Shown here piece after piece: positions 23,549 through 26,296 of a DNA stretch of 64,000 nt. Within the stretch, counting starts at the first letter, position 1, and the number at the start of each line of letters is the position of its first letter. The position numbers and the translations under genes were made by a program. This DNA is from Gammaproteobacteria bacterium (GTDB lineage Bacteria; Pseudomonadota; Gammaproteobacteria; HyVt-429). The notes beneath the pieces are model-generated. The model was not told the origin of the DNA and ran no database searches. It saw only the letters and a list, made by a program, of their open reading frames with translations. The stretch spans positions 45,589 through 109,588 of the forward strand of contig JAADGI010000008.1 of assembly GCA_013152415.1 (NCBI GenBank), read 5' to 3'.

Positions 23549-23974
23549 TCAAGGCGAACGATCCAATAGGATTTTCGCCTGTTTTCGTTCTATGTCGGTG
23601 ACGTCCCGATAACCTCGAGTATAGGGCCAGCCGTAGCCCCAGCGGTAAGAGGTGAGCCAAAACGGTGACCCACCGGCACGGACGCCGGCACGCATGATGT
23701 TGGCGAGGTGTGGGTTCTCGATTTTAGAGATACATTCTTTCAAGGCGTTGTCTGCGGCCAATCGCTGTGAGTAGTTGCCCCCTAGCCAATAGGCCTTGTC
23801 GTGATTTACACAACAACTGTGCCAGCGTTGAGGGTCGTTCGCTGGGCCATCGGGAAAGCTGCTGCAACCATCGGTACTAAAAGGTTTTAACTGTCCGGAG
23901 TATTCGCAGGCCGTGATCACAAATAAGATCAAACTCGCCAGTGTGATTTGGCGCGAAATAGAAAAAAGCCTCAT
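23549..23974 (-). CDS. Lipoprotein with phospholipase A2-like CCxxHD motif
   Basis: A 141-residue protein with a signal peptide and lipobox (LILFVITACEYSG), so likely anchored in a membrane. The mature part contains DGCSSFPDGP...WHSCCVNHDKAYWLGG. CCxxHD is the catalytic signature of secreted phospholipase A2 (His and Asp of the dyad, cysteines for disulfides). The usual calcium loop is not obvious. Two later cysteine-free blocks, RAADNALKECI-like and GGSPFWLTSYRWGYGWPY, are shared by a gammaproteobacterial family without known function. ATGA overlap with the upstream VOC gene. Confidence 0.65.
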   Translation of the reverse strand: MRLFSISRQITLASLILFVITACEYSGQLKPFSTDGCSSFPDGPANDPQRWHSCCVNHDKAYWLGGNYSQRLAADNALKECISKIENPHLANIMRAGVRAGGSPFWLTSYRWGYGWPYTRGYRDVTDIERKQAKILLDRSP

Positions 23975-24521: not shown

Positions 24522-25175
24522 TTGACTGATAAGAAAATCACTCAGTATCCGGGCAATGAAGTCAATGTAAGCTGGGATGGTCGCTTGTGTATCCATATCG
24601 GCGAATGCGGTCGTGCCAAGGGTGAGTTGTTTGTGGGTGGTCGCCAGCCCTGGTGCCTGCCCGACCAGGCTTCCCCGCAAGAGGTGGATGACGTGGTGAC
24701 GTCCTGCCCCACAGGGGCCTTGGTCTTCGAGGTGCAAGACGGTAGTTCCAAAGAGCAGGTAGAAGATGAGAATACCGTTGTGGTGTCCTACAACGGGCCT
24801 CTTTTTGTCCGTGGAGATTTGGATATTGAAGGCGTTGATGACGATATGCCCGGTACCCGATATCGCGCTGCTTTATGTCGTTGCGGCGAGTCGAACAACA
24901 AACCCTTTTGTGACAACGCTCACGAAAAAATTGGTTTTCAGGATTATGGCGCCGTTGGTGAGAAGGGCGATGGCCTGAGTGCTGTCGGAGGCAAGCTCAG
25001 TATCAAGTCCCTACCCGATGGGCCACTACTTCTGTCCGGCAACCTCAGCATCAAGGCCAGCAGTGGTCGTGTGGCCTGGCAGGGCACCCAGGCTGCTTTG
25101 TGCCGTTGTGGCGCCTCCAAGAACAAACCCTTTTGCGACGGCAGTCACAAAGAGGCAGGGTTCAAAAGTGATTAG
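24522..25175 (+). CDS. Iron-sulfur protein: 4Fe-4S-like domain plus two CDGSH domains
   Basis: A 217-residue protein. The N-terminal 70 residues are a divergent ferredoxin-like domain (C of LCIHIGECGRAK, PWCLP, VVTSCPTGAL). Two CDGSH-type 2Fe-2S motifs follow: LCRCGESNNKPFCDNAHE and LCRCGASKNKPFCDGSHK, each with the C-x-C-x9-C-x3-H ligand pattern. Such proteins store or transfer iron-sulfur clusters. Start is TTG with AGGAGA upstream. The VOC and ferritin-like genes follow on the same strand, suggesting an iron or redox theme. Confidence 0.92.
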   Translation: MTDKKITQYPGNEVNVSWDGRLCIHIGECGRAKGELFVGGRQPWCLPDQASPQEVDDVVTSCPTGALVFEVQDGSSKEQVEDENTVVVSYNGPLFVRGDLDIEGVDDDMPGTRYRAALCRCGESNNKPFCDNAHEKIGFQDYGAVGEKGDGLSAVGGKLSIKSLPDGPLLLSGNLSIKASSGRVAWQGTQAALCRCGASKNKPFCDGSHKEAGFKSD

Positions 25176-25190
25176 CGTGGGGCTAAACTC

Positions 25191-25550
25191 ATGAATGAGC
25201 ACGAGAAGATCAATTACGTCGAATTCCCGGCAAAAAATATAGAGGCAATAAAGGAGTTTTTTGCCGCCGTATTCGGTTGGTCATTTGTTGACTATGGCCC
25301 TGAATACACTGCTTTTTCCAATGAAGGTATCAATGGAGGGTTTTTCAAGTCAGAGTTAGTGTCTTCTGCCGACAAGGGTGGTGCGCTTATCGTTTTCTAT
25401 AGTAACAGCCTGGAAGAAACTCAATTCAAGATAGAAAACGCTGGTGGCACTGTTCTAAAATCAATATTTGAGTTTCCCGGTGGGCGGCGATTTCACTTTG
25501 GCGATCCCAATGGTAATGAATATGCAGTGTGGTCAGACGTAGGGGTGTAG
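25191..25550 (+). CDS. VOC-family protein
   Basis: A 119-residue VOC domain protein: INYVEFPAKNIEAIKEFFAAVFGWSF in the first half and FPGGRRFHFGDPNGNEYAVWSD at the end, the pattern of small glyoxalase-like proteins. The first-half His ligand is replaced (NYVEF), so activity is uncertain. It lies 15 bp after the CDGSH gene and is probably cotranscribed. Confidence 0.85.
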   Translation: MNEHEKINYVEFPAKNIEAIKEFFAAVFGWSFVDYGPEYTAFSNEGINGGFFKSELVSSADKGGALIVFYSNSLEETQFKIENAGGTVLKSIFEFPGGRRFHFGDPNGNEYAVWSDVGV

Positions 25551-25607
25551 TAAATTGTATTTTTAGATGTGATTGTTAATGAATATCAATATTTAAGGGG
25601 ATAAAAA

Positions 25608-25895
25608 ATGGCAAATGAAGGTTATCACGAAGAAATCAGTGACTTGTCCGATGAGACCCGGGATATGCATCGGGCGATTGTTTCTCTAATGGAGGAGCTG
25701 GAGGCGGTAGATTGGTATAACCAGCGGGTGGACGCTTGTCAGGATAGTGATCTCAAGGCCATCCTTGCCCACAACAGAGATGAAGAAAAAGAGCACGCGG
25801 CCATGGTGCTTGAATGGATACGGCGTAAAGACCCGGCCTTTGATAAAGAGCTTAAGGACTACTTGTTTACAGAAAAGCCCATAGCCCATAAATAA
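25608..25895 (+). CDS. Encapsulated-ferritin-type (EncFtn) protein, no targeting tail
   Basis: A 95-residue protein matching encapsulated ferritins. MHRAIVSLMEELEAVDWYNQRVDAC and ILAHNRDEEKEHAAMVLEWIRR contain the Glu, Glu and His of the ferroxidase site formed between two subunits, and the conserved W-Y. Known EncFtn proteins end in a Gly/Ser linker and a short encapsulin-binding peptide; this one stops at YLFTEKPIAHK. No encapsulin shell gene is in the window. It probably oxidises iron as a free annular oligomer (inference). AAGGGG precedes the ATG. Confidence 0.88.
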   Translation: MANEGYHEEISDLSDETRDMHRAIVSLMEELEAVDWYNQRVDACQDSDLKAILAHNRDEEKEHAAMVLEWIRRKDPAFDKELKDYLFTEKPIAHK

Positions 25896-25897
25896 AT

Positions 25898-26296
25898 ATG
25901 GATTATTCTTTTAAACTGGATTTCAAGGTTAGAGACTACGAGTGTGACATCCAGGGTGTAGTGAATAATGGGGTTTACCAAAATTACTTAGAACATGCCC
26001 GACATGAGTTCTTGTTGGCATCGGGGGTCGATTTTGCCGAGCTGGCTAAACAAGGGATAAATCTGGTCGTTACCCGTGCCGAGCTTGACTATAAATACCC
26101 TCTGCGTAGTGGAGAGACATTCTGGGTGGGACTCAATCTGCAACAGGTCTCCAAAATTAAATTCGCATTTCTCCAGGAGATCTATCGGTCAGCCGACGAT
26201 AAGTTGATTGTATCTGCCCGGATAATGGGCGTTGCGCTCAATGAGCGGGGTCGCCCCTTTGTGTATGAGCCGGTGGCGGGATTGTGCCGACAGTAA
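25898..26296 (+). CDS. 4HBT-type acyl-CoA thioesterase
   Basis: A 132-residue hotdog-fold protein of the YbgC/4HBT group: VRDYECDIQGVVNNGVYQNYLEHARHEFL contains the catalytic Asp or Glu region, then VVTRAELDYKYPLRSGETFWV. It would hydrolyse acyl-CoA thioesters. The start lies 2 bp after the stop of the ferritin-like gene, so both are on one mRNA, although their functions are not obviously related. Confidence 0.9.
   Translation: MDYSFKLDFKVRDYECDIQGVVNNGVYQNYLEHARHEFLLASGVDFAELAKQGINLVVTRAELDYKYPLRSGETFWVGLNLQQVSKIKFAFLQEIYRSADDKLIVSARIMGVALNERGRPFVYEPVAGLCRQ

Follow-up and report, generated by a model that had tools for sequence, protein, structure and literature searches.

In the field of encapsulated ferritins (EncFtn), enclosure within an encapsulin shell is held to be necessary for iron storage, and the short family members named s-FLP are listed as an unsolved case. 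The stretch of gammaproteobacterial DNA analysed here (64,000 nucleotides of contig JAADGI010000008.1, assembly GCA_013152415.1, hereafter the window) carries one such gene at positions 25608-25895. The locus raises the question of whether an EncFtn-type protein with neither a neighbouring shell gene nor a targeting peptide acts as a free iron-oxidising ring or instead loads a shell encoded elsewhere, the two alternatives put forward in a first-pass annotation of this DNA. The genome surveys reported below argue strongly, though not conclusively, that s-FLPs are free proteins, and they place part of the class in a rubrerythrin operon.

The gene product and its class

The open reading frame, on the forward strand, has an ATG start and a TAA stop, encodes 95 amino acids and is preceded by AAGGGGATAAAAA. 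Its product matched the EncFtn-like family PF22277 with E=8.5e-45 (150.9 bits against a cut-off of 27) and TIGR04535 with E=2e-40 (137.3 bits against a cut-off of 125). Since both scores exceed their cut-offs a chance match is excluded, and by these profile matches the product is an EncFtn-family protein. The gene and its diagnostic segments are as follows.

25608..25895, forward strand: s-FLP (Non-EncFtn), predicted EncFtn-like ferroxidase ring subunit without targeting peptide (PF22277, TIGR04535 and PDB 3k6c match)
25692..25718, forward strand: first-helix ferroxidase and entry residues E29, E30, E32, W36 and Y37 (codons E29-Y37, EELEAVDWY; Rhodospirillum rubrum EncFtn alignment)
25770..25796, forward strand: second-helix HxxxEExEH motif with ferroxidase ligands E60 and H63 (codons H55-H63, HNRDEEKEH; R. 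rubrum EncFtn alignment)
25866..25892, forward strand: conserved short C-terminus FTEKPIAHK (codons F87-K95), replacing linker and targeting peptide (lengths of relatives and conservation of H94)

When aligned with the R. rubrum EncFtn Rru_A0973 (PDB 5da5, an encapsulated FLP-TP), the window protein showed 58 identities over 90 core positions and kept every ferroxidase and entry residue of that protein (E31, E32, E34, W38, Y39, H57, E61, E62, E64 and H65) at an offset of -2. Nearly all of these residues are invariant among 163 aligned short homologues, and the HxxxEExEH motif is named as such in PMC11202242. The profile matches and this alignment bear out the EncFtn identity and the ferroxidase residues proposed at first pass. 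The first-pass view that the protein ends after its helical domain, with no targeting peptide, was equally sound: tailed EncFtns run on into a linker and targeting peptide at the very point where the window protein stops (FTEKPIAHK), and a motif search of its tail was empty. An encapsulin-type targeting-peptide motif was found in none of 169 short-tailed homologues, the window protein included, as compared with 18 of 22 long-tailed proteins. The short tail is itself conserved, the H94 position being kept in 148 of the 163 short homologues.

Relatives of EncFtn without an encapsulin-targeting sequence were grouped as ‘Non-EncFtn’ by He et al. 2016 (PMC5012862), and the class name s-FLP is that of Eren et al. 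2024 (PMC11202242). No tested feature separates the window protein from this class, of which, judged by sequence, it is a further member. The type structure of the class is 3k6c, the NE0167 protein of Nitrosomonas europaea, described as a decamer in PMC11202242. The two proteins, both of 95 amino acids and with the same tail, align without gaps over residues 1-95 (E=2.8e-49, 78/95 identical), and NE0167 differs in having Leu where the window protein has W36. Our genome scan found at least 584 relatives; among the best 80 of these, which were kept, 69 are exactly 95 amino acids long and all 80 fall within 94-101 amino acids. The short form was present in 89 of 370 gammaproteobacterial genomes, or about a quarter. 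The first-pass annotation had implied that a shell-less EncFtn would be exceptional, which was not borne out, the class being common, already named and represented by a structure.

Relation to encapsulin shells

The window's own genome, which is 92.9% complete, gave no match to the encapsulin model PF04454, and the same model finds known encapsulins in the controls. Taken together with one genus-mate and two family-mates, four genomes (G000, G094, G201 and G286) lacked any PF04454 encapsulin. We also considered a Family-2 encapsulin as a hidden shell and rejected it, since PF19307, a model that gives strong matches elsewhere, had none in the own genome. The first-pass statement that this EncFtn has no shell gene was thus upheld by both searches.

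The 370 gammaproteobacterial genomes were each searched for EncFtn and for encapsulin; EncFtn tails were read in fetched loci, only near-complete EncFtn matches were counted and shell positions were taken from PF04454 matches. EncFtns that either bear a targeting-peptide tail or are joined to a shell in one protein occurred in 21 genomes, and encapsulin was found in the same 21 of 21 and in 0 of the 349 others, always adjoining. The short form behaved differently: encapsulin was present in 6 of 89 genomes with s-FLP versus 15 of 281 without it (p=0.60), and in 1 of 33 versus 7 of 107 when a single genome per family was counted. In the six genomes that have both (G012, G175, G209, G218, G298 and G345) the shell adjoins a separate tailed or fused EncFtn. 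A smaller phylum-wide sample, in which tails were unread, gave no indication that any short EncFtn adjoins a shell. Tailed EncFtn and encapsulin always occur together, whereas the presence of s-FLP does not depend on that of encapsulin. This contrast favours the free ring, and we consider it highly likely from these distributions that s-FLPs work as free proteins outside a shell. It is accordingly the first of the two first-pass alternatives that the surveys support; the loading of a distant shell is disfavoured, as no shell gene was found in the own genome, the genus-mate or the two family-mates, and coexisting shells have their own adjoining EncFtn.

Several unusual cases were noted during these surveys. 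Genomes G409 and G429 of the phylum-wide sample each carry a divergent EncFtn-like match (∼84-86 bits) together with an unlinked PF04454 encapsulin. Partial EncFtn matches were seen in G352, G025 and G002, with in-frame stops in the first two, and these may be pseudogenes or assembly errors. Two genomes of the same genus, G340 and G064, have no PF04454 match and encode EncFtns (L141 and L173, respectively) that carry a Lys/Ala/Pro-rich tail of 23-27 residues and are nested in the short-form group of our tree. Both also carry an SrpI-like Family-2 shell. In G064 (L223) this shell adjoins a desulfurase-like protein of its own, which has a long N-terminal extension; the pairing is that of known Family-2 operons.

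The tree was built from 114 proteins over only 86 columns, and its root was not inferred. Eighty-six short forms, including the window protein and NE0167, formed a weakly supported group (81/78) with two Lys-tailed proteins, and the peptide-tailed EncFtns lay outside it. The simplest reading of this unrooted tree is that s-FLP arose from encapsulin cargo by loss of the tail. Four short forms (L182, L184, L203 and L210) fall among the tailed EncFtns; their genomes lack encapsulin, and they may represent separate losses of the shell system.

Linkage to the rubrerythrin operon

Neighbours were counted by TBLASTN with named proteins at 88 loci of the class survey and at 22 long-tailed loci. At a substantial minority of the former, s-FLP lies in an operon of rubrerythrin, an Fe-S oxidoreductase with a CCG domain, and DUF3501, the oxidoreductase being detected at 23 of 88 loci and DUF3501 at 24 of 88. 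Within the operon s-FLP usually stands between the oxidoreductase and DUF3501, and in L088 and L137 it is downstream of DUF3501. The rubrerythrin gene itself was visible at 16 loci, many loci being just 3.25 kb long and too short to show it. None of the 22 long-tailed EncFtn loci had this linkage, and among the best 80 of the at least 584 relatives L055 alone had it. On the tree, loci with this linkage are dispersed: the 24 of them require at least 19 changes, a figure as low being reached in 21 of 500 shuffles. Because of this scatter the linkage appears to have been gained or lost many times, with the caveat that the tree is poorly resolved.

Co-occurrence in genomes pointed the same way. 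DUF3501 was present in 64 of 89 genomes with s-FLP versus 104 of 281 without (p=1e-8), and in 26 of 33 versus 40 of 107 (p=4e-5) at one genome per family, the only level to which kinship was corrected.

The trio corresponds to the aerobic-type operon of rubrerythrin (RBR), the Fe-S oxidoreductase RFO and DUF3501 described by Cardenas et al. 2016 (PMC5114695). The same trio is present in the window's genome, and relatives have s-FLP inside it; the family-mate G286, for example, has its s-FLP in the linked arrangement (L094). The searched passages of PMC5114695 contain no mention of an EncFtn member of this operon, those of PMC5012862 and PMC11202242 contain no link of s-FLP to it, and our literature search for the combination of EncFtn and rubrerythrin operon found no report, so that the link is apparently new. 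A functional connection between s-FLP and rubrerythrin is suggested by the gene order, at what we would put as somewhat less than even odds.

Proposed function and its alternatives

Our overall reading, to which we give a probability of roughly 0.6, is that s-FLP is a free cytosolic decameric ferroxidase ring, often found alongside the aerobic-type rubrerythrin system. The two-helix EncFtn-type subunits would most likely form an open ring of ten, its di-iron ferroxidase sites lying where subunits meet; such a ring is expected because the 82%-identical NE0167 adopts one in the crystal. It would lie free in the cytosol, outside any encapsulin. Fe2+ would enter at E29/E32/W36 and be oxidised at E30/E60/H63, with Y37 nearby; that s-FLP functions as a ferroxidase is, from these residues, probable. 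As there is no shell, Fe3+ would be released instead of stored. The likely role would be to lower the level of free Fe2+, using up O2 or peroxide as well, and thereby to limit Fenton chemistry. We propose tentatively, and at a level of confidence well below that for the ferroxidase function, that the aerobic-type rubrerythrin system may often include s-FLP as a fourth, hitherto unrecognised member. On this proposal a ring without a shell, descended from encapsulin cargo, would oxidise Fe2+ in concert with rubrerythrin, RFO and DUF3501, so that peroxide and free iron were removed together.

A number of observations weigh against this reading. In the window's own genome the trio is on contig C29 (L217, 6928 to 4474) and s-FLP is on C26, so that, in contrast to the linked relatives, the two are unlinked. 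DUF3501 is missing from 25 of the 89 s-FLP genomes, and the association statistic carries the limited kinship correction given above. N. europaea, the source of the type structure, is reported to lack rubrerythrin (PMC5960693). Because linkage is absent in the window and those 25 genomes lack DUF3501, the rubrerythrin partnership cannot be obligatory. Shell-less EncFtns are described in PMC11202242 as oxidising iron with a ferric precipitate as the result, and a shell-free ring would therefore need some sink for Fe3+.

The genes and the candidate site around s-FLP are these.

24522..25175, forward strand: double-CDGSH and Fer4_19 iron-sulfur protein, upstream of s-FLP (PF09360 4.2e-34, PF06902 1.9e-15)
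25191..25550, forward strand: VOC-family protein, upstream of s-FLP (PF00903 3.1e-11)
25574..25588, forward strand: Fur-box-like palindromic site TGTTAATGAATATCA, with 2 mismatches to TGATAATNATTATCA, just upstream of the s-FLP start (suggestive only)
25898..26296, forward strand: 4HBT/YbgC-like acyl-CoA thioesterase of 132 amino acids, starting 2 bp after the s-FLP stop (PF13279 1.7e-14)

The arrangement described at first pass, CDGSH and VOC genes before and a thioesterase 2 bp after, agrees with these coordinates and Pfam matches. We rejected these neighbours as the key to the function of the class, since they are kept only within the genus (L108). Regulation by Fur was likewise rejected: the site is the sole one in the window at 3 or fewer mismatches, about 2 being expected by chance, and it is not conserved in relatives or in the genus-mate L108. 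Further upstream (23549-23974, reverse strand) is a putative lipoprotein of 141 amino acids whose CCVNHDKAYWLGG motif recalls prokaryotic phospholipase A2 (PF09056 at only E=0.045).

The CDGSH protein in the local operon bears on one alternative, that s-FLP oxidises iron as a free protein on behalf of a different sink, its Fe3+ being fed to a classical ferritin or to an iron-sulfur/CDGSH pathway and s-FLP not being a rubrerythrin partner. Several complete s-FLP genomes do have classical ferritins; of eight other s-FLP genomes searched with PF00210, six gave strong matches (classical ferritins or Dps), one a weak rubrerythrin-like match and one (G285) none. In the window's genome and its genus-mate, however, PF00210 detected no classical ferritin and gave a single weak match each, that in the own genome being rubrerythrin, and on this basis s-FLP may serve as the chief ferritin-type ferroxidase there. 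As the CDGSH linkage is also genus-specific, whereas that to the rubrerythrin operon recurs across many lineages, we regard this alternative as unlikely. Less likely again is that s-FLP is not mainly a ferroxidase, its di-iron ring reducing peroxide or serving as a metal-responsive sensor or scaffold. Co-location with the peroxide-scavenging rubrerythrin operon and the metal-dependent assembly of R. rubrum EncFtn (PMC5012862) would fit such a role; the ferroxidase and entry residues are nevertheless all kept and near invariant. Finally, a cryptic signal in the well-conserved short tail (LFTxKPIAH) might yet direct s-FLP into a shell encoded elsewhere; the own genome is incomplete, and Eren et al. 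2024 (PMC11202242) leave encapsulation open, see no steric bar and assign the tail no defined function. We nevertheless hold this to be very improbable: a PF04454 encapsulin is missing from 83 of 89 s-FLP genomes, a proportion close to that among genomes lacking s-FLP; the shells that do occur have their own adjoining EncFtn; and the tail matches the segment that closes the core in tailed EncFtns (YLFTEGPI) and not their peptide.

With tailed EncFtn perfectly coupled to encapsulin and s-FLP independent of it, the free ring becomes a testable proposition. The recurring link to the rubrerythrin operon is the first concrete functional lead that we found for the s-FLP class, and it also provides a handle on the role of DUF3501.
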